A stretch of DNA of 35,705 nucleotides, from positions 6,670-42,374 of IMG/VR virus record IMGVR_UViG_3300030085_002781; one strand, written 5' to 3'. Position numbers and translations under genes: made by a program. Below the pieces are notes generated by a model, which saw only the letters and a list, made by a program, of their open reading frames with translations, searched no databases and was not told the DNA's origin. Each line of letters starts with the position of its first letter. Position 1 is the stretch's first letter. Source of the stretch: a virus. Below, one piece after another: positions 3,208-35,373 of the stretch.

Positions 3208-3257
3208 AGGCATGCCAAAATCATCAAACATTTATATAAATTTATAGGAAGTTGACA

Positions 3258-4694
3258 ATGACGGCAATTTTAGCATTACTGGCAGGTATATTATATGGAC
3301 TAATAATAGGAATAATTCCTAGTGCAGGAGCAACTACAGGTTTAGTTGCACTGTTTGGCTTTATTAGTTACTTTGCATACGACCCTTATATTGGTGTTGT
3401 TTTCTTAATGGCTGTAGTCGCCGCCAGTACGACTGGAGATAGTTTCACTGCAATCTTATTAGGTATTCCTGGTGCAAATAGTGCCGCGGCTACCATGGTA
3501 GATGGATTCCCTCTTGCACAACAAGGTAGGGCAGGATATGCCATTTCTGCCGCAGTTACTACTAGTACAGTAAATGGATTACTATGGGGGTGTTTAGTAT
3601 TTTTATTACTGCCTTGGTATACTAATCTTATATACATATTTGGCGTTCCTGAACTGTGGGCATTTACATTACTTGCATTAGCAACTGTAGGCTTCTTAAG
3701 TAATCAATATTGGTTACGTAGTATACTGGCTATCGCATTTGGAATCTTTATAGGAATGGTAGGGGTCAACCCTGATAATAATGAAGCAAGATTAGGCGCA
3801 CAGTATTGGTTCTATTTGGAAGATGGCATACAGATTATGGCAGTCGCCGCAGGATTATTTGCCGTACCAGAACTTACAAGAGGATTGTTTTTAAAACACG
3901 TTACTTCTAATAGTGAAATTCGTAAAGGAGAACTATGGGCAGGTATGAAAGCAAGTTGGGAAAATAGATGGCTTGCATTACGTGGAGGGTTCATTGGTGC
4001 ATTTATTGGGTTACTTCCGGGACTTGGAGGACAAATGGCAGACTGGATGGCATATGGTCAAGCCGTAGCCGCTAATCCAAAAGAGAAATTTGGTAATGGT
4101 AACATCAAAGGTGTTATAGGACCAGAAGGTGCAAACAATGCCCAAAAAGCAACAAGTATGATTACTACTGTTATATTCGGAATACCCGGAGCAAAATTTG
4201 CCGCAATACTTATGAGTTTGTTTATGTATCTAAACATTGAACTAGGTACACCTGATATAGCAGAGGACACTCAATTATTCAAAGCCATGACATTTGGCTT
4301 TTTAGGAGCAACAATAATTGTTGCACTAATTTGTATGTTTCTAATTAAACCAATTAGTAAATTAGCCGCAGTGCCATACAAATACTATTTTCCTGTATTA
4401 TTAGCATTGATAATTTTTACTTCAATGCAATACACAGGTGGCTGGGAAGACCTGGCCATGTTAGCAATATTTTCTTGTATAGGATTTGCTATGCGACACT
4501 TTAGGTTTAGCAGACCTGCTTGTCTAATAGGATACATTCTAGCAGAAAAAGTTGAAGGACTTACACTTCAAATTACAGGACTTTACACTGTAGACACACT
4601 GGTCACTCGACCAATATTCATGACACTTATAGTAATTACTATTGCTATATTTTTATACAGCATACTAAGAAAAGGAAGGATTGATTATGCGTAA
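3258..4694 (+). CDS. tctA: TctA-like large membrane subunit of a tripartite tricarboxylate transporter
   Basis: A 478-residue, near full-length TctA protein that is almost all membrane helices (about 10-12). Both family repeats are present: LLGIPGANSAAATMVDGFP near 67-85 and the later FIGLLPGLGG with PEGANNA and a second FGIPGAK. TctA forms the channel that, with a periplasmic TctC binding protein and small TctB, takes up carboxylates by ion-driven transport. ATG 3258 is chosen over an upstream TTG at 3252 because TAGGAA ends 7 nt before it. TctC overlaps its end by 8 nt; no tctB lies between or beside them. A transporter core in a phage genome is unusual. Confidence 0.92.
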   Translation: MTAILALLAGILYGLIIGIIPSAGATTGLVALFGFISYFAYDPYIGVVFLMAVVAASTTGDSFTAILLGIPGANSAAATMVDGFPLAQQGRAGYAISAAVTTSTVNGLLWGCLVFLLLPWYTNLIYIFGVPELWAFTLLALATVGFLSNQYWLRSILAIAFGIFIGMVGVNPDNNEARLGAQYWFYLEDGIQIMAVAAGLFAVPELTRGLFLKHVTSNSEIRKGELWAGMKASWENRWLALRGGFIGAFIGLLPGLGGQMADWMAYGQAVAANPKEKFGNGNIKGVIGPEGANNAQKATSMITTVIFGIPGAKFAAILMSLFMYLNIELGTPDIAEDTQLFKAMTFGFLGATIIVALICMFLIKPISKLAAVPYKYYFPVLLALIIFTSMQYTGGWEDLAMLAIFSCIGFAMRHFRFSRPACLIGYILAEKVEGLTLQITGLYTVDTLVTRPIFMTLIVITIAIFLYSILRKGRIDYA

Positions 4695-9358: not shown

Positions 9359-9808
9359 ATGATAGAAAAGTTTGAAGATACACCTTTTGAGAAAAATAAT
9401 CAATCTACAGTAGCAGATGATTTTTATTATAGAGTTTATGAAGACAAATGGCCAGTATGCGATGGTCATCTATTATTTGTACCTAAAGAAAATAGCGTAA
9501 AATTTATTACAATAACTTTACAAGCAACTGTCCAATATGGAGAGAAACTTGTGGAAGAAGGAAAGATAGACGGATATCATTTTGGAATGAATATGAGAGA
9601 GCCTGCAGGACAATCTGTAATGTGGCCTCATGTTCATTTTATGCCAAGAAAACAAGGAGACATAGAAGGGTTTCCTGGTAGTGTAAGATTTGCAGTTAGA
9701 AATGGTAGAGGTCCAGCATACTATTTAAATCACCCAGACTTCAAAGAAGAATATGCAGATTTACATCAACATGTTATAGATGAAGAAGGCTTCATACGAG
9801 ATGAGTAA
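9359..9808 (+). CDS. HIT-family nucleotide hydrolase
   Basis: A 149-residue protein with the HIT landmarks: WPVCDGHLLFVPK near 31-43 and WPHVHFMPRK near 89-98. H91 and H93 keep the first two histidines of HxHxH, including the usual nucleophile (H93); the third position is Met95. The family hydrolyses or transfers nucleotides from AMP-linked or dinucleoside polyphosphate substrates. Activity is likely but may be changed by the lost third His. The end overlaps the start of the second radical SAM gene (ATGAGTAA), so the two are coupled. Confidence 0.8.
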   Translation: MIEKFEDTPFEKNNQSTVADDFYYRVYEDKWPVCDGHLLFVPKENSVKFITITLQATVQYGEKLVEEGKIDGYHFGMNMREPAGQSVMWPHVHFMPRKQGDIEGFPGSVRFAVRNGRGPAYYLNHPDFKEEYADLHQHVIDEEGFIRDE

Positions 9809-11255
9809 AACTTTCTGTATTGCTCCTTGGCACGATGTACATGTAATAACAGACGGAACTTTTAAAGGTTGCTGTGTTATGAGTAATGGTGAACAAGAAG
9901 GCAGATTGTGTAATAACGGAAAACCATTAACAGTTGCAGAAGCAGGAATCAAAGGTGCAATAAATTCAGATACAAGTAAACAATTACGTTTAGATATGCT
10001 TAATGGCAAATGGCATACTAATTGTAAACGATGTAAAGACGAAGAAGACTCTGGTATGCGAAGTATGAGACTTCTATATGAAAGTAGATGGGTTGATAAT
10101 AAACAGTTTACTTTTGAAGATGCACAAAAAATAACAAATCCAGAAACAGGCGAACTATCAGAAGACCATACTCCTTTTTATTATGATATTCAATTAGGAA
10201 ACTTATGTAATCTTAAATGTAGAATATGTAGTCCTATTGTTAGTTCTTCATGGATACCTGATTACATGAAGATGATGAAATTAGGTGATAAAGCAAAGAT
10301 AAAAGTAAGAGACGGATTTGATATTGAAGTAGAACATTTACAAGGTAAAAAATATAATATAACTCCTAATCCATTTGCATGGGCAGAATCAGATAAGTTC
10401 TGGGAGCAGATGTCTAGTATTAAATCTAAAATAGATAGATTATATCTTATTGGTGGCGAACCAATGATGATACACAGACACTTTAAGTTTTTAGAAGAAT
10501 GTGTAGAAAGTGGTGATGCAAAAAATATCATATTACAATATGATACTAATTTAACAAATATACCTCAGAAAGTTATGGGATACTGGAAAGAGTTTAAGTT
10601 TGTTGAAATAGGTTTTAGTATAGATGGTAAAGGCAAACAATTAGAATACATGAGACACCCTGTAAAATGGGATCACATGTTGAGAAATATAAACAGAATG
10701 GAAGAGTTTGCAAAACAAAATGATAATATAAAATTATACGATTCTGTAACTATTAGTATGTACAATGTTTTACATATACTTGATTATATTGAATGGAAAG
10801 TAAAAGCAGGATATCATGATTATAATTATCTATTCCAATATCATGACCAACACTTTGGTACACACCCATTACATGTTCCTAGATTTTTAAATTTAAGAAC
10901 GATGCCAGCATCAGCAAAAATAGAAGTAGCAAAAAGATATAATGAATGGCGTGATAAAATGTTGCGTTGGTGTGATGATATTGATAAATGTAGACGAGGT
11001 CATTATTCATACAGAACAACATTAGATAGTCTTAGAAACGCAATCAATGGATTTGTTGATAATCATATTGCATTTTTTAATCAGAACGATAACTCTAAAG
11101 ATATGTATAGATTTTGGAGTTTTACAAATGATTTAGATGAAGTAAGAGGTGAAAGTTTCAAAGAAGTATTTCCAGCAGAATGGGAATTATTCAGTGATTA
11201 CAAAGAAAAACCTCAGTGGAAATTTCTACCTACAGAGACATTTTACGAGGAATAG
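9801..11255 (+). CDS. Twitch domain-containing radical SAM protein (second copy)
   Basis: A 484-residue protein. ATG 9801 is preferred to one at 9780 because it gives the MSKTFC opening shared with the protein at 1147 and is preceded by GAAGAAGG. The twitch-like part has C6, C24-C25 and a CxxC (C75, C78). The SAM-cluster motif is CNLKCRIC (C136, C140, C143) and GGEP is at 218-221. It is longer than the first copy, mainly between the cluster motif and GGEP. The two look like paralogues, perhaps acting on different targets in one pathway. Substrate unknown. Confidence 0.88.
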   Translation: MSKTFCIAPWHDVHVITDGTFKGCCVMSNGEQEGRLCNNGKPLTVAEAGIKGAINSDTSKQLRLDMLNGKWHTNCKRCKDEEDSGMRSMRLLYESRWVDNKQFTFEDAQKITNPETGELSEDHTPFYYDIQLGNLCNLKCRICSPIVSSSWIPDYMKMMKLGDKAKIKVRDGFDIEVEHLQGKKYNITPNPFAWAESDKFWEQMSSIKSKIDRLYLIGGEPMMIHRHFKFLEECVESGDAKNIILQYDTNLTNIPQKVMGYWKEFKFVEIGFSIDGKGKQLEYMRHPVKWDHMLRNINRMEEFAKQNDNIKLYDSVTISMYNVLHILDYIEWKVKAGYHDYNYLFQYHDQHFGTHPLHVPRFLNLRTMPASAKIEVAKRYNEWRDKMLRWCDDIDKCRRGHYSYRTTLDSLRNAINGFVDNHIAFFNQNDNSKDMYRFWSFTNDLDEVRGESFKEVFPAEWELFSDYKEKPQWKFLPTETFYEE

Positions 11256-16731: not shown

Positions 16732-17126
16732 TTAAAGATTCTATAGAGTTTGCTATAGATAAAAGACTTAGGAGAGAGAACATCACTCCTAAAGCCCTAG
16801 ACTTGTACGAGTCTTGGAAAGATAGTTTCAAAGGACACAAAAGAAAAAGAGGTGTCTATGTAATATTTGATAATGATAATGTCATTTATGTTGGAAAGGG
16901 CTTCTTTACTGCACGTAATACTAGTCATTACAATAAAGCAATAAACAAAGCGAAATACAATCCAAAGGGTTGGATTTGGTTAAAAGAAAACTATAATTAT
17001 AGTATTGACAACTGGCAGTTATATATGATAGAATTGGATAGTGAAGTAGATATAACATTTATGGAAGGTGCATTGATTAAAGATTTCATGCCCTTGGCAA
17101 ACGATGAGGTATACAATGACAGGTAG
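16728..17126 (+). CDS. GIY-YIG domain endonuclease-like protein
   Basis: A 132-residue protein with RGVYVIF (41-47) and VIYVGKG (52-58), the GIY and YIG strands, ARN soon after (Arg63), and E113 in FMEGALIKDFMPLAN with N125. This is the full set of family landmarks. The N-terminal 40 residues are helical. GIY-YIG enzymes cut DNA in repair, restriction or homing. No intron or split gene is near, so a repair or host-degradation role fits better; the UvsE repair gene follows directly. Confidence 0.78.
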   Translation: MIKDSIEFAIDKRLRRENITPKALDLYESWKDSFKGHKRKRGVYVIFDNDNVIYVGKGFFTARNTSHYNKAINKAKYNPKGWIWLKENYNYSIDNWQLYMIELDSEVDITFMEGALIKDFMPLANDEVYNDR

Positions 17127-18129
17127 AGTTGGTTTTGCATGTAAGTACATGTATGAGGATCAAAATCTAAAACCTAAACAACTTAAAGAAGTTCAACAAC
17201 CTCTTAACTTTCGAGGTACCACTATCAAATGGTTACGTGAAAATCAATCACTATCACAAGAAAAAGTTTACGAACTAATCATTCACAACCTAGATGCTAC
17301 AGAAAGACTCGTTGACTATGTAAGTAGTTTACCAATACAACAACGTATGTTACGACTTGGCAGTGATATGTTGCCAGCATATACAGAACCTACATTTGGG
17401 CATCTATCAAAAACAAATTACATTACAACAATCATTGCTGACCGACTAAATACCATTGGTGAAAAGGCTAGAGCAAACGATGTACGTTTGTCAATGCACC
17501 CTGGTCAGTTTTGTGTTCTCGCATCAGATAATCCTGATATCGTAGAACGAAGCATAGAGGAGTTTGAATATCATGTGGATATCGCAAGGTGGCTGGGCTA
17601 CGGCAGAAAATTTCAGGACTTTAAAATCAACGTCCACATATCGGGTCGTCAAGGTCCAGAAGGCATCAAAGCAGTACTCCCACGACTCTCGCAAGAGGCG
17701 AAAAATTGTATCACAATCGAAAACGAAGAAAACGCCTGGGGTTTGGATTCTTGCTTAGAACTTGAAAAACATGTTGCACTAGTACTTGACATACATCATC
17801 ACTGGTGTCACAGTGGTGGAGAATACATTGAGGTAAACGATGATAGAGTTAAACGTATTATTGATAGTTGGCGTGGTGTTAGGCCTGCTATGCATTATTC
17901 TGTTAGCAGGGAAGATTATATCACGGGACATAGAACGGACGTTAGACCAGATTTTCAAAATCTTCTAACGCAAGGTTACAAAAAAGCAAAACTTAGGGCG
18001 CATTCCGATTACATGTGGAATACGGCTGTAAACGAATGGGCAGGCACGTTTCGTAAAGACTTTGATATCATGGTCGAAGCAAAATGTAAAAACTTGGCTA
18101 GTATCCCATTTGAGGAGGAAACACGATGA
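17116..18129 (+). CDS. uvsE: UV damage endonuclease UvsE/UVDE
   Basis: A 337-residue TIM-barrel protein. Family motifs in order: RVGFACKYM at the start, FRGTTIKWLREN, MLRLGSDMLP, MHPGQFCVL, INVHISGRQGPEG, ENEENAW and DIHHHWCHSGG; the last four carry His/Glu/Asp metal ligands. The enzyme nicks DNA 5' of UV photoproducts and other lesions, useful to a phage in surface water. ATG 17116 is preferred to 17104 because GAGG sits 6 nt ahead and homologues begin near RVGFA. It overlaps the GIY-YIG gene end and shares ATGA with the next gene. Confidence 0.92.
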   Translation: MTGRVGFACKYMYEDQNLKPKQLKEVQQPLNFRGTTIKWLRENQSLSQEKVYELIIHNLDATERLVDYVSSLPIQQRMLRLGSDMLPAYTEPTFGHLSKTNYITTIIADRLNTIGEKARANDVRLSMHPGQFCVLASDNPDIVERSIEEFEYHVDIARWLGYGRKFQDFKINVHISGRQGPEGIKAVLPRLSQEAKNCITIENEENAWGLDSCLELEKHVALVLDIHHHWCHSGGEYIEVNDDRVKRIIDSWRGVRPAMHYSVSREDYITGHRTDVRPDFQNLLTQGYKKAKLRAHSDYMWNTAVNEWAGTFRKDFDIMVEAKCKNLASIPFEEETR

Positions 18130-24126: not shown

Positions 24127-24667
24127 TACACTAATGTCATTCAAACTTGACACAACTGATAAATATGATGCATCAAATAACAGTGAGAACAATAATAATA
24201 TGGATTTTATATCAGCAAAAGGTCGAGTAGAAATCGCAGACAAAATTACTGAAACGTTAGACAAGAAGCCTGAAATTTCAGACCGTATTCAAGCGGCACG
24301 ACAACAAGGTGGGTTAGAAGAAAACGAAGAACTTCTTACTGCTTTAGATGATATGCAAATGTTAGATATGGAACTTAACAGACTTCAATCTATTCTTGAT
24401 TCTGCAACAGTTATTGAACCTTTACCAAAAGGCAAAAAGAAAACTGTGACATTTGGTTGTCATGTAAAGTTGGAAAACTTGGATAATGGTAATAAAACAA
24501 AATATCAAATTCTAGGGGAATTCGAATCAAATCCATCTGAAGGAACTATCAGTTATAAGTCTCCTTTAGGTAGAGAATTAATTGGCTGTAAAAAGGGCGA
24601 TGTTATAGCAATTATGCGTCCTGCAGGCGATATTGAGTACGAAATCCTTGACATTTTTGTACCTTAA
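24116..24667 (+). CDS. GreA/GreB-like transcription factor
   Basis: A 183-residue protein. After a ~30-residue Asn-rich lead it has the Gre coiled coil (about 37-97) with tip ARQQGGLEENEEL, then the C-terminal FKBP-like domain: VTFGCHVKLE, YQILGEFE and ISYKSPLGRELIGCKKGDV. GreA enters the RNA polymerase secondary channel and uses two tip acids to trigger transcript cleavage (D41 and E44 in E. coli). Here the first is Gly66 and the second is kept (Glu69). It could therefore bind polymerase without normal cleavage. Start ATGATG; either Met fits AAGGGA. Confidence 0.82.
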   Translation: MMNNTLMSFKLDTTDKYDASNNSENNNNMDFISAKGRVEIADKITETLDKKPEISDRIQAARQQGGLEENEELLTALDDMQMLDMELNRLQSILDSATVIEPLPKGKKKTVTFGCHVKLENLDNGNKTKYQILGEFESNPSEGTISYKSPLGRELIGCKKGDVIAIMRPAGDIEYEILDIFVP

Positions 24668-24671
24668 AAAC

Positions 24672-24699
24672 TTGACAAATAGGCGATTCGTGCTATATT
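24672..24699 (+). promoter_or_regulatory. Sigma70-like promoter
   Basis: TTGACA (24672-24677), 16 bp, TATATT (24694-24699), just after the GreA-like gene. RNA from about 24706 would carry AAAGAGAGG and the SleB-like gene. Confidence 0.75.
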
Positions 24700-24725
24700 A
24701 ATAGAGTAATAAAAGAGAGGCAGAA

Positions 24726-25735: not shown

Positions 25736-25756
25736 TGTCCACTAATCTTTATTATG
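25712..25756 (+). promoter_or_regulatory. Split ribosome-binding site with bridging hairpin before guaC
   Basis: AAGGAGG (25712-25718) lies 35 nt before the guaC ATG, too far to act directly. Between them ATTAGTGG (25721-25728) pairs perfectly with CCACTAAT (25739-25746). Folding this stem leaves only about 9 unpaired nt between AAGGAGG and the ATG, an ideal spacing. T4 genes 25 and 38 use this device. The upstream stop codon lies in the loop, so translation of that gene would open the stem. Confidence 0.7.
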
Positions 25757-26932
25757 CATATTGAACACGAAGTAAAATTAAATTATGACGATGTACTAAT
25801 CAGACCAAAACGTTCTACATTGGGTTCAAGAAAAGAAGTAGATTTAGAACGAGGGTTCACCTATCCTAATTATGAACCCTATCCTGATAACAATCCTGAT
25901 TTGCTTCCTAAAGGTTATCCTGCAGGTCCATACGTAGAGAAACACTTTCGGGGTGTTCCTATTATGGCAAGTAACATGGACGGTGTAGGTACTTTTGAAA
26001 TGGCTGATGAATTAGCAAGTCAAAAAATAATGACTTGTCTAGTGAAAACGTATTCTGTAAATGAATTAGTAAGTTATTTTGATATAATGCCGACGGCTAG
26101 AAAAGAATATGTTGCAATGAGTATAGGCATAACTCAGAATGATGAAGACAAATTTAGAGCGGTATACGAACAAGTAGGTGATAAACTTAAGTATATTTGT
26201 ATCGATGTCGCTAACGGTTACTCAGAACGTTTCTGTGACTTTGTAAGACGATTTAGACAGTGTTATTCTAATCTTGTTATCATTGCAGGTAATGTAGTTA
26301 CTGCTGACCAGACGCAGGAGTTAATCTTAAATGGAGCAGATATCGTTAAAGTGGGTATTGGTCCTGGTTCAGTTTGTACTACAAGAATTCAAACAGGTGT
26401 AGGTTATCCTCAACTTAGTGCAGTGATTGAGTGTGCAGATGCGGCTCATGGTCTTGGAGGACATATCATTGCTGATGGTGGCTGTACTTGCCCTGGTGAT
26501 GTAGCAAAAGCATTTGCCGGAGGAGCAGACTTTGTTATGCTTGGTGGAATGTTAGCAGGTCATGATGAAGGTGGTGGTAAAGTTGTTACTAAACATATCG
26601 CTACAGGTGGGGCATACAAAACACCAGAAGGAACATTTATTCCTTATTTTGAAGAACAGAATTTTATTCAGTTTTATGGCATGAGTTCAGATGCGGCAAA
26701 TCAAAAACACTTTGGTGGTTTAAAAGACTATCGTGCAAGTGAAGGTCGTGAAGTGCTTGTACCATATAGAGGAAAGGTAGCAGATACAATACAAACAATT
26801 CTTGGAGGTATTCGTTCTACTTGTACATATGCAGGTGCAAAAAGGTTGAAATATCTTTCAAAATGTGCTACATTTGTAAGAACAAATACGCAATATAATA
26901 AAACGTATGAAAGTACAACAACAAAAATGTGA
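25754..26932 (+). CDS. guaC: GMP reductase
   Basis: A 392-residue IMPDH/GMPR barrel. The opening [19 protein letters not shown] is characteristic of GMP reductase, as is [20 protein letters not shown] with catalytic Cys208, followed by [19 protein letters not shown] and [11 protein letters not shown]. It lacks the CBS domains of IMP dehydrogenase. An extra loop of about 25 residues sits near 40-65. The enzyme reduces GMP to IMP with NADPH, recycling guanine nucleotides towards adenine, which suits an AT-rich phage. The N-terminus matches homologues, so the ATG at 25754 is right although it lacks an adjacent ribosome site. Confidence 0.93.
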
Positions 26933-31883: not shown

Positions 31884-32070
31884 GAAGCCACACTTTTTAT
31901 ATCTTGTAGAACACAAGAATAAAATCACAAACAAAATTGAAAGCGAATTAAAATTAATGACAGAAGTTGAGGCAAGTCATTTAGCCTTAACAGAAGACAT
32001 GGATGTTTGGAATTGCCATCAAGCATTAGACATAGATCCCGAAATGCTAGACGTTGACGTTTTAGCATAA
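31870..32070 (+). CDS. Small protein, unknown function
   Basis: A 66-residue protein opening MKKTKKPHFLYLVEHKNKIT, with a beta-alpha layout and an acidic end. It overlaps the upstream gene by 14 nt. Its last codons contain a promoter-like element for the RNA that follows. Confidence 0.55.
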   Translation: MKKTKKPHFLYLVEHKNKITNKIESELKLMTEVEASHLALTEDMDVWNCHQALDIDPEMLDVDVLA

Positions 32071-32083
32071 CACAATATATAGT
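32054..32083 (+). promoter_or_regulatory. Sigma70-like promoter for a candidate small RNA
   Basis: TTGACG (32054-32059) with TATAGT at 18 bp (32078-32083) or TATATA at 16 bp (32076-32081). RNA would start near 32090, just before the structured segment and well clear of any open frame. Confidence 0.5.
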
Positions 32084-32089
32084 AATATT

Positions 32090-32220
32090 ACTTTCCCGAT
32101 AGTTTTTGTAAATAATAGTGCAGTCCTCGTGACTGCACTTTAGTACGGTGCTCCCTGCACCGTTCTCTAGTCCTCTTCGCCAACTGACCCGGTAGTAGCA
32201 ATACTATCGGGTCTTTTTTT
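32090..32220 (+). ncRNA. Candidate structured small RNA, about 130 nt
   Basis: A non-coding segment between a promoter-like element and a terminator. Stem 1 (32117-32139) pairs AGTGCAGTC with GACTGCACT. Stem 2 (32145-32163) pairs ACGGTGC with GCACCGT. The terminator stem is at 32186-32213. In addition, CCCGATAGT (32095-32103) is a perfect complement of ACTATCGGG (32203-32211), the 3' arm of the terminator. The RNA can thus close into one long stem holding both hairpins, or form the terminator. I do not recognise a known RNA family. Confidence 0.6.
32186..32220 (+). terminator. Rho-independent terminator
   Basis: A 12-bp stem (GACCCGGTAGTA with TACTATCGGGTC, one G-U) closed by a GCAA tetraloop and followed by seven T residues. 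It separates the small RNA from the putA leader. Confidence 0.9.
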
Positions 32221-32478
32221 GTCTATTTTGAACTGCTTTTTAGTTAAAACAATAAATATTTGCATGGGAACGTTAAGTTTTCTATGCTTAATAGAACTTA
32301 TATTTAATCACGTGCCCAACACTAAACTCATTAAGTTGAGTACAAGATTTCGAAGTCCCTTCTCTTTGTGAGGTGCTATCAAGTCTCGAGGCATTATTGT
32401 GTACACGCAATAGCAACAGAGAGGTCTTCTATTCAGATTAAAGAGGGGTCTTAGACCCCTCACACTGAAACGGCAAAC
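32221..32478 (+). other. Non-coding structured leader upstream of putA
   Basis: About 260 nt with no convincing open frame. It holds an AATAAATA late-like box (32251-32258), a hairpin TAAGTT-CTAT/ATAG-AACTTA with a 2-nt bulge (32274-32300), a small ACTCA/TGAGT hairpin, TATTGTG pairing with CGCAATA around TACA, and a strong GAGGGGTC-TTA-GACCCCTC hairpin (32443-32461) without a T-run. It could be a separate RNA or a long regulatory leader; no riboswitch class is recognised. Confidence 0.45.
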
Positions 32479-32520: not shown

Positions 32521-35373
32521 ATGAAATGTTATCCACATAACGACTATTATAGAGCAGACGAAGAAGATGTAGTTTCAAAACTATTGATTGCCACTCGTCC
32601 ATCTAAACAAGACCGCCTGGAAGTTTTCAACCAGGCTAATGAACTACAGGCAAAAATCAACGATAAACATTATCTTACAAAAATAATGCAATCGTATGAC
32701 ATGAGTGCGCCAGAAGGAATGGCACTTATGACATTATGCGAAGCATTACTGCGAACACCCGATCCTGCAACACAAGATGAATTAATAAAAGATAAATTAA
32801 CTAACGCACAATGGGATAATTTATCTGACAAAAGTTTTTATTCAAGAGCAACAAGTTTAGCATTAACAAAAGCACAAATGTTTTCTGCTTATGAAGGCAT
32901 TGTAGCAAGACTTGGTTGGCCAGCAGTTAGAAAAATAGTAAAAGAAATGGTTAAAGTTTGTGGTAACATATTTGTTATGGGCGATACTATTCATAATGCA
33001 CAAGCAAACAAGAAACCAGATTACTTATATAGTTTTGATATGCTAGGAGAGGCGGCAACTAATTGGGAAGACGCAAACACATATTACGAAAAGTATATGT
33101 ATGCCGCAAAACAATTCGAAGATTCAATATCAGTAAAGTTAAGTGCAATTCATCCTAGATATGAACTCAAAAATCATAAAGAAGTAATTCATACTATGGT
33201 ACCAAAGTTAGCCGCTTTGGCTAGAATATGTGAAGAAAACAACACAACATTGTTTATAGATGCTGAGGAAACTCGTAGATTAGACATCAGTATTATGGTT
33301 CTTGAAGAATTACTAAAAACATACAAATTTAAAGATAACACAATAGGAATAGCACTACAGGCTTATCAGAAACGTGCATTTTGGGTTATTGATACTCTAC
33401 AGACTATATCAGATAGCATAAGCACTAAAATCGCTGTACGGCTTGTTAAAGGTGCATATTGGGACACTGAAATTAAAACGGCTCAACAGGAAGGTCTAGA
33501 TTATCCAGTATTCACAAGAAAAGAACACACAGATATTTCTTATATAGCATGTACAAGAAAACTATTACATTGTAAAAATATCACACCTGCGTTTGCTACA
33601 CATAATCCATATACAGTTTCGGCAGTGATGTACAGTGTAAATTGTTGTGAAGAAATGAAAGAAAAGAAAATAGAATTTCAAAAACTATATGGTATGGGTG
33701 ATGGTCTTTTTGATAAATTAGTCAAAGATTATCCTGTAAGAGTATATGCGCCAGTAGGCGAGTACAAAGATTTACTTGCATATTTAATTAGAAGACTGTT
33801 AGAAAATGGTGCAAACACAAGTTTTGTTTTCAATCAAGTTGTTACAGATCCATTTATAGAATACAAACAAGATAAAGAAAAGTTACCAGCATGGAATGAA
33901 TTATATCCAAATAGAAAAAATAGTAAAGGTTATGATTTGACAGATCCTGCTATGATTGATTACATGTTAGATTCCCCACCACATACAGAACCTGATGAAG
34001 AAATGCTTTCAGTAGAAGATACGATTTCTGTTTTACACAATTATCAAACAACATGGGCGAACACACCATTTGAAGAAAGAAAAAGAATTTTACTTGCATG
34101 TGCAGACAATTTAGAAGATGAAATAACAAGTGCGGCAAATAGACTTGTTCATCATGCTTTTAAAACTTATCCTAATGCAGTTGCAGAGATAAGAGAAACA
34201 GTTGACTTTATAAGATACTATGCCGACCAAGCAGAATTACTTTATCATAGACATGTAAGACAAGGATACACAGGTGAACATAATAGTACAGAATATCATG
34301 CAAGAGGAACTTGGATGGTTATTTCACCATGGAACTTTCCGTATGCAATTTTTGTTGGACCGATTGCGGCCGCATTGTTAACAGGAAATACTGTACTAGC
34401 CAAACCAGCACCACAGACTTTAGAGATTGCGAAAGTTATATTAGCAAGTATGCATCACGTTGGAGTTCCAGTAGATGCACTACGTATGTGTAATCCAGAC
34501 ATAGATGAAGCCGCAAAAGCAGTTAAAGATGAAAGAATTTCAGGTATAACGTTCACAGGTTCACATAAGAGTGCAAAAGCAATACAAAGACTTATTGCAG
34601 AACGTGATGGTGCAATCATTCCTTTTATTGCAGAGACAGGTGGTATAAACTGTATGATTGCAGACTCTACTTGTTTACCAGAACAATTAGTACAAGACGT
34701 AACGCATGGTGCGTTTGATAGTGCAGGACAAAGATGTTCAGCAACTAGATATCTATTTGTTCAAAAAGAAAACTCAGATACAGTTTTACATATGTTAAAA
34801 CATAGAATTAAAATTATAACACTTGGACATTCAGAAGATTTGAATACAGATGTGTCACGTGTTATTGATGGCGAAGCGTTTAGAAAGATACAAGAAAGAA
34901 TTGCTAGACTAGAAGAAAACGAAGAACTGATTGCAACAAAATCTCGTAATGGTAAAAACTTACCAAAACTAATTGTACCTCCTAGTGCATATCTCGTATC
35001 AGATTATAAAGAATACTTTGATGAAGAAATCTTTGGTCCATTGTTACACGTTTATGTGTATGAGAAAAATGAACTAGAAGATATTTTAGATTTCATAAAC
35101 AATAGTAAATTTGGTCTTACGTTAAGTGTTCATTCACGTGTTAGTTCTTTTTATGATAATATAAGCACTAAAATGAAAGTAGGAAATATTTACATCAATA
35201 GAGACCAAATAGGTGCAGTAGTTGAAACACAACCTTTCGGAGGATATGGATTAAGTGGTACAGGACCAAAAGCAGGTGGACCAAACTATCTAATGCCTTA
35301 CGTATGGGAAAAGCACATCAGTACAAACACAACTGCCATTGGTGGTGACGTTTTGCTATTGACTTCTAAGTAA
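32521..35373 (+). CDS. putA: Bifunctional proline dehydrogenase / P5C dehydrogenase PutA
   Basis: A 950-residue protein oxidising proline to glutamate in two steps. The FAD proline dehydrogenase barrel (about 130-450) shows YSFDMLGEAA, KLSAIHPRY, DAEETRRLD, LVKGAYWDTEIK and ATHNPYT. The aldehyde dehydrogenase part (about 510-940) shows WNFPYAIFVGPIAAAL, FTGS, AETGG with the general-base Glu, SAGQRCSATR with the nucleophile Cys, and EEIFGP. There is no N-terminal DNA-binding domain, so it is the short, non-regulatory type. ATG 32521 is used: a GTG at 32479 lies upstream of the late box. No neighbouring gene belongs to the pathway. Confidence 0.93.
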   Translation: MKCYPHNDYYRADEEDVVSKLLIATRPSKQDRLEVFNQANELQAKINDKHYLTKIMQSYDMSAPEGMALMTLCEALLRTPDPATQDELIKDKLTNAQWDNLSDKSFYSRATSLALTKAQMFSAYEGIVARLGWPAVRKIVKEMVKVCGNIFVMGDTIHNAQANKKPDYLYSFDMLGEAATNWEDANTYYEKYMYAAKQFEDSISVKLSAIHPRYELKNHKEVIHTMVPKLAALARICEENNTTLFIDAEETRRLDISIMVLEELLKTYKFKDNTIGIALQAYQKRAFWVIDTLQTISDSISTKIAVRLVKGAYWDTEIKTAQQEGLDYPVFTRKEHTDISYIACTRKLLHCKNITPAFATHNPYTVSAVMYSVNCCEEMKEKKIEFQKLYGMGDGLFDKLVKDYPVRVYAPVGEYKDLLAYLIRRLLENGANTSFVFNQVVTDPFIEYKQDKEKLPAWNELYPNRKNSKGYDLTDPAMIDYMLDSPPHTEPDEEMLSVEDTISVLHNYQTTWANTPFEERKRILLACADNLEDEITSAANRLVHHAFKTYPNAVAEIRETVDFIRYYADQAELLYHRHVRQGYTGEHNSTEYHARGTWMVISPWNFPYAIFVGPIAAALLTGNTVLAKPAPQTLEIAKVILASMHHVGVPVDALRMCNPDIDEAAKAVKDERISGITFTGSHKSAKAIQRLIAERDGAIIPFIAETGGINCMIADSTCLPEQLVQDVTHGAFDSAGQRCSATRYLFVQKENSDTVLHMLKHRIKIITLGHSEDLNTDVSRVIDGEAFRKIQERIARLEENEELIATKSRNGKNLPKLIVPPSAYLVSDYKEYFDEEIFGPLLHVYVYEKNELEDILDFINNSKFGLTLSVHSRVSSFYDNISTKMKVGNIYINRDQIGAVVETQPFGGYGLSGTGPKAGGPNYLMPYVWEKHISTNTTAIGGDVLLLTSK

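Follow-up and report, generated by a model that had tools for sequence, protein, structure and literature searches.

A conserved small RNA gene with a putative T4-type late promoter in marine jumbo phages and their relatives

Several phage-encoded small RNAs (sRNAs) have been described, among them OOP, Sar, IpeX, 24B_1 and CfrI, and most of these belong to temperate phages or coliphages or are cis-antisense RNAs (reviewed in PMC12197685). The same review describes no sRNA from a jumbo phage, and the word 'jumbo' is absent from its text (PMC12197685). Among bacterial sRNAs, AbcR1/2 expose a single-stranded anti-Shine-Dalgarno (anti-SD) motif between stem-loops (UUCCCCUC) and carry another in a loop (PMC8844928), and the Caulobacter sRNAs SisA-D have in common a 10-mer with an anti-SD signature (PMC12559287). 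In phage T4, late transcription starts about one helical turn downstream of an 8-bp TATA box, which constitutes the late promoter (PMC2988020). Here we describe a non-coding RNA gene of ~100 nt, at ~32117-32220 on the + strand of a 35,705-nt stretch of viral DNA (hereafter, the window), that constitutes a new family of phage sRNA, itself a known kind of molecule.

The window spans positions 6670-42374 of a virus record of 42,374 bp. Relatives of 60 of its 74 called ORFs were found in a marine record of 342,607 bp (G001; median identity 74%), and 32 ORFs had relatives in a second record of 342,181 bp (G010; median identity 59%). Proteins shared between either of these and a third relative, G011, had median identities of 47-51%, and overall protein identity among the RNA-carrying phages spanned ~33-74%. 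Both G001 and G010 encode a T4-type major capsid protein as well as a gp55-type late sigma factor (phrog_12791, E 3e-80) close to a gp47-like gene; the search for gp55 found none in the 42-kb fragment, G011 or other partial records. G001 and G010 are jumbo phages within the T4 superfamily, and the window's contig is a relative of marine T4-like jumbo phages of ~342 kb. Permuted (two-piece) tmRNAs were predicted by ARAGORN in G001 (281184-281530) and G010 (185943-186373), with tags ANDNYQPEMAMAA and ANTNAAPAMAKLAA, which suggests an alphaproteobacterial-type host or origin. ARAGORN also predicted tRNAs with a CTA anticodon ('Pyl', probably amber suppressors) in G010 (132737-132811) and G011 (121642-121718), making stop-codon recoding possible in these phages.

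Genes around the sRNA locus encode a flavodoxin-reductase-like protein, glutaredoxin and PutA. The putA gene likely starts at the ATG at ~32521, where ATGAARTGTTATCCACATAA is conserved in relatives, and its product is full-length and bifunctional, with PRODH, P5CDH and DNA-binding-domain matches. Elsewhere, the window encodes a TctA-family transporter (3252-4694), IMPDH (25754-26932), the UV endonuclease UvdE (17104-18129) and two radical SAM proteins (1147-2385, with a SPASM domain, and 9780-11255) near methyltransferase-like and unknown genes.

A first-pass annotation of the window had proposed a candidate small RNA in non-coding DNA that contains two hairpins followed by a terminator. Both folding and a terminator scan bore out this architecture for 32108-32220, and the terminator is intrinsic and strong. 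The minimum free energy of the segment 32093-32222 was -47 kcal/mol, versus -25 ± 3.3 for shuffled sequences (z = -6.6). As shown in Table 1, a 16-nt linker separates the second hairpin from the terminator. Within the linker, CCUCUUC had an unpaired probability of at least 0.94 in all five homologues described below, and the GCCAA part was partly paired in G010 (0.42-0.71). RNAalifold proposed possible extra ACU/AGU pairs between 32137-32139 and 32169-32171, through which the first linker bases may close hairpin 2. Rfam returned no family match for the window at the gathering score; relaxing the search to E values up to 5 gave no alpha-r family, and weak non-alpha-r matches appeared only at E > 1. 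According to ARAGORN and Rfam, the segment itself matches no tRNA, tmRNA or other Rfam RNA.

Table 1. Features of the sRNA locus in window coordinates.
Feature	Position	Strand	Observation
CCCGATAGT 'switch' arm	32095..32103	+	lineage-specific, outside the conserved RNA
TAAATA box, putative T4-type late promoter, context NTAAATA[C/A/T]	32109..32114	+	invariant in 5/5 homologues
Hairpin 1 (AGUGCAGUC / GACUGCACU)	32117..32139	+	4/7 modelled pairs double-changed, 100% paired, n = 5
Hairpin 2 (ACGGUGC-UCCCU-GCACCGU)	32145..32163	+	compensatory double changes in 6/7 pairs
Invariant linker UAGUCCUCUUCGCCAA, proposed seed CCUCUUCGCCAA	32168..32183	+	same in 5/5 homologues
Intrinsic terminator, stem 32186-32197 / 32202-32213 and U7	32186..32220	+	terminator scan, fold
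RNA2, second conserved structured segment between terminator and putA	32350..32470	+	separate element
putA (proline dehydrogenase / P5C dehydrogenase)	32521..35373	+	Pfam Pro_dh 1.5e-81, Aldedh 1e-82

Searching with a 17-mer from the linker recovered the RNA in G001 (identical in G002), G010 and G011 (identical in G012). A relaxed pattern led to L201/L203, contigs of 49,967 bp and 39,733 bp. The homologue set thereby consisted of five distinct sequences: the window, G001, G010 (L020), G011 and L201. Only AGTCCTCTTCGCC and CCCG were fixed in the pattern that found L201; neither hairpin contributed to the query, nor did the TATATAAATA box, the U-run or the surrounding genes. A covariance model (R1) built from the first four sequences alone scored L201 at 47.5 bits (E = 2e-12). 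Moreover, the L201 locus is orthologous because its neighbours (MscS-like, p120, p108 and p228) match G011, G001 and G010 at 32-56% identity. When the 17-mer was compared with ~85,000 species genomes, there were four matches, all without flanking RNA elements. Matches to CCCTGCA..CTCTAGTCCT outside the family were likewise devoid of RNA elements and resembled coding sequence, and further matches to R1 and a second model, R2, near major-capsid genes proved to be ordinary terminators. The sRNA was not found in any cultivated phage searched.

Aligning the same locus across related phages, a check proposed in the first-pass annotation, revealed that the stems are conserved. All 25 pairs were intact in every member of the four-sequence alignment, with double changes in 7 of them. 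Adding the fifth sequence raised the number of pairs with compensatory double changes to 12 of 25, distributed over all three helices, while 99.2% of pair cells stayed intact. Shuffled alignments had 4.3 ± 1.5 double changes, with none reaching 12, and slid controls had at most 3. The alignment fitted to the model (A6) is biased towards the structure, and a plain MAFFT alignment (A3) gave the same answer. Changes in the terminator preserved pairing among homologues, and L201 has a different stem. The order of elements is common to all five homologues: TAAATA box, hairpin 1, hairpin 2, single-stranded linker, and terminator with U-run. In a comparison of G001 with G011, the linker was the best-scoring match in non-coding DNA, ahead of tRNAs. 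Covariation over five phage lineages strongly supports a small RNA.

The locus had also been credited with its own promoter and terminator, of which the terminator stands and the promoter requires reassignment. The sigma70-like promoter originally named (TTGACG-18-TATAGT, 32054-32083, a 10/12 match) is at chance level, as the region contains 29 sites of this class versus 26.2 ± 4.6 in shuffles, and its -35 element is absent from the aligned relatives. What is conserved instead is the TAAATA box, a promoter by sequence, which lies 2-4 nt 5' of hairpin 1 in all five homologues. ATAAATA and TAAATAC were the top enriched 7-mers 5' of ORFs in G001 and G010, ATAAATA was the top 7-mer in G011, and both were enriched 6-14-fold in the non-coding DNA of G000, G001 and G010. 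Given this enrichment of a TATAAATA-like box 5' of ORFs in G000, G001, G010 and G011, and the gp55-type sigma factor of G001 and G010, the sRNA promoter is most likely of the T4 late type rather than sigma70, and expression of the sRNA is predicted to be late. The distance from box to start in T4 would place the RNA 5' end at ~32117-32122. A separate, recurrent early-type promoter (AAAACTTGACA-N-CGAATCRTG-TATATTA, with the conserved spacer motif CGAATCRTG) occurs at window positions 24666-24720, in many copies in G001 and G010, and once in G011, followed by leaders with a AAGAGAGG Shine-Dalgarno sequence.

Our preferred reading, to which we assign a probability of roughly 50%, is that the phage makes a free-standing late sRNA acting in trans, for which the CU-rich, anti-SD-like linker provides the seed. 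Host RNA polymerase with the phage gp55-type sigma factor probably transcribes the sRNA late from the TAAATA box, and its terminator would end the transcript. The two hairpins would constitute an interchangeable scaffold. The exposed linker, with core CCUCUUCGCCAA, most likely targets Shine-Dalgarno regions by base pairing in trans, with UUGGCGAAGAGG as the ideal partner, and pairing would block translation of host and/or phage mRNAs. We infer action in trans, and anti-SD pairing is proposed by analogy to the AbcR and Sis sRNAs: the CU-rich motif is exposed, and CCUCUUC complements GAAGAGG. This pairing mechanism is the weakest step of the explanation, and protein binding is its main rival.

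Target searches gave marginal evidence at best. Duplex energies with phage ribosome binding sites were no better for the linker than for shuffled linkers. Among ortholog groups of phage genes, 11 had conserved targets at ≤ -13 versus 5.3 expected, and 15 of 200 shuffles gave counts equally high. Across 398 Pseudomonadota genomes, complementary sites, identical 16-mers and homologues were found only at control level. The linker had no overall preference for early genes: the difference was significant only in G010, and shuffled linkers gave an equal one. The single matches AAGAGGACTAAATG (G001) and GGTGAAGAGGACT (G010) were unconserved between orthologues. Pairing with tmRNA gave no signal, and pairing with RNA2 gave a signal in one genome only.

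An invariant 16-mer exceeds the usual seed length, and the linker could instead be a protein-binding site. The linker would then be recognised by the ribosome or by an RNA-binding protein of host or phage origin, which the RNA would titrate or recruit in place of pairing with mRNA. Such a decoy would explain why 16 single-stranded nucleotides do not vary at all among the homologues, and why no pairing target was found in the phage and Pseudomonadota genomes scanned. However, we recognised no known protein-binding site in the linker, and hairpins, linker and terminator with U7 are the ordinary anatomy of a base-pairing sRNA. We consider protein binding the strongest competitor, at odds well below those of the trans-acting sRNA.

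Gene order around the RNA bears on whether it might be a cis-acting leader, as in the attenuator or riboswitch suggested in the first-pass annotation. The order is dCMP deaminase, RNA and MazG in G011; dCMP deaminase, RNA, RNA2 and putA in G010; a 66-aa ORF, RNA, RNA2 and putA in the window, with MazG-like sequence following at the window's end; and p120, RNA and PRA-PH in L201. PRA-PH belongs to the same superfamily as MazG. A ligand, protein or ribosome might thus control termination ahead of the downstream gene (MazG or PRA-PH, both all-alpha NTP pyrophosphatases, or a putA-MazG operon), an idea favoured by the MazG-superfamily gene directly 3' of the RNA in G011, G012 and L201 and by the MazG-like sequence after putA. 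Yet, RNA2 and putA are what comes next in three lineages, two of which have further ATAAATA boxes, and the G011 MazG gene has its own TTGAAA-17-TATAAT 3' of the terminator. There is no conserved anti-terminator or alternative pairing, the terminator is 99% formed, and conservation falls on an unpaired linker instead of an aptamer-like core. The sRNA is retained although its flanking genes vary, and it is independent of its neighbours. We therefore regard a cis-acting leader as unlikely.

Less probable still is that the RNA is merely the upstream gene's terminator with incidental hairpins that stabilise a 3' UTR. A strong terminator does lie 3' of an ORF in every case, but the upstream genes differ, the TAAATA box is fixed immediately 5' of hairpin 1, and conservation of the linker exceeds any requirement of a terminator.

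The bistable fold originally envisaged, a switch or end-closed RNA, depends on CCCGATAGT, which is indeed an exact 9-nt complement of ACTATCGGG in the terminator's 3' arm. In the base-pair probabilities of the predicted ensemble, this pairing accounts for ~0.8% versus 99.2% for the terminator stem. The 9-mer is found in no homologue, only in this contig, and the late promoter would place it upstream of a transcript of ~100 nt (~32117-32220). The switch is already refuted as a conserved feature, and we give it almost no weight. A short coding gene reading through the linker is equally implausible: frames of ~15-26 codons are open across the linker in four of five homologues, but no frame is conserved, the frame that begins with the 5' ATG/GTG at hairpin 1 runs into a stop codon both in the window (GTG CAG TCC TCG TGA) and in G010/L020 (ATG TAG), the L201 frame lacks a start codon and is interrupted by TAA just 5' of the linker, and there are neither synonymous third-position changes nor a Shine-Dalgarno sequence.

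RNA2 was found in G000, G001 (~325105-325230), G002 and G010 (complement of ~116830-117000), and its pattern had no match in the two MazG-only relatives. It reads GAAGYCCCUUCU ... AGAGGUCUUCUA, followed by a hairpin of variable sequence within a short outer stem. The stems of RNA2 appear to covary, and the window copy had no Rfam match. RNA2 could be a leader of putA.

The RNA has 12 pairs that covary and a 16-nt linker that does not change, although protein identity between the phages is often no more than 35-55%; this marks it as more constrained than nearly all of their other non-coding DNA. More tentatively, and with less confidence than in the trans-acting sRNA itself, we suggest that this is an ancient, vertically inherited late sRNA of T4-like jumbo phages of marine bacteria, whose frozen anti-SD seed mimics host anti-SD sRNAs and, at the onset of late transcription, reprograms how host mRNAs or early mRNAs of the phage are translated. 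If true, the T4-type late transcription switch would be tied to post-transcriptional control with a defined seed. The covariance models R1 and R2 can be used to annotate the sRNA in other viral genomes.

Compared with known systems, the RNA is like OOP, Sar, IpeX, 24B_1 and CfrI in being a phage-encoded non-coding RNA. A weak covariance-model alignment to SdsR/RyeB (RF00111) extended over the 5' hairpin, linker and terminator, and membership was rejected at 16.9 bits versus a gathering score of 38 (E = 2). SisA-D are similar in their anti-SD signature but are chromosomal. AbcR1/AbcR2 (alpha-r15) and NfeR1 of rhizobia are trans-acting sRNAs of similar size (NfeR1, 115 nt; PMC8844928), and AbcR1/2 likewise expose a CU-rich anti-SD motif between stem-loops. 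Their motifs are UUCCCCUC / CUCCUCCC in contrast to the phage seed, the covariance model did not place the RNA in the AbcR/alpha-r15 family, and Rfam gave no match. Unlike these sRNAs, the one described here is phage-borne, has a T4-late-type box and would act on putative targets. The likeness to T4 late transcription lies in the TATA box and, in G001 and G010, the gp55-type sigma factor; whereas T4 late transcription classically drives late mRNAs, here its predicted product is a small RNA.
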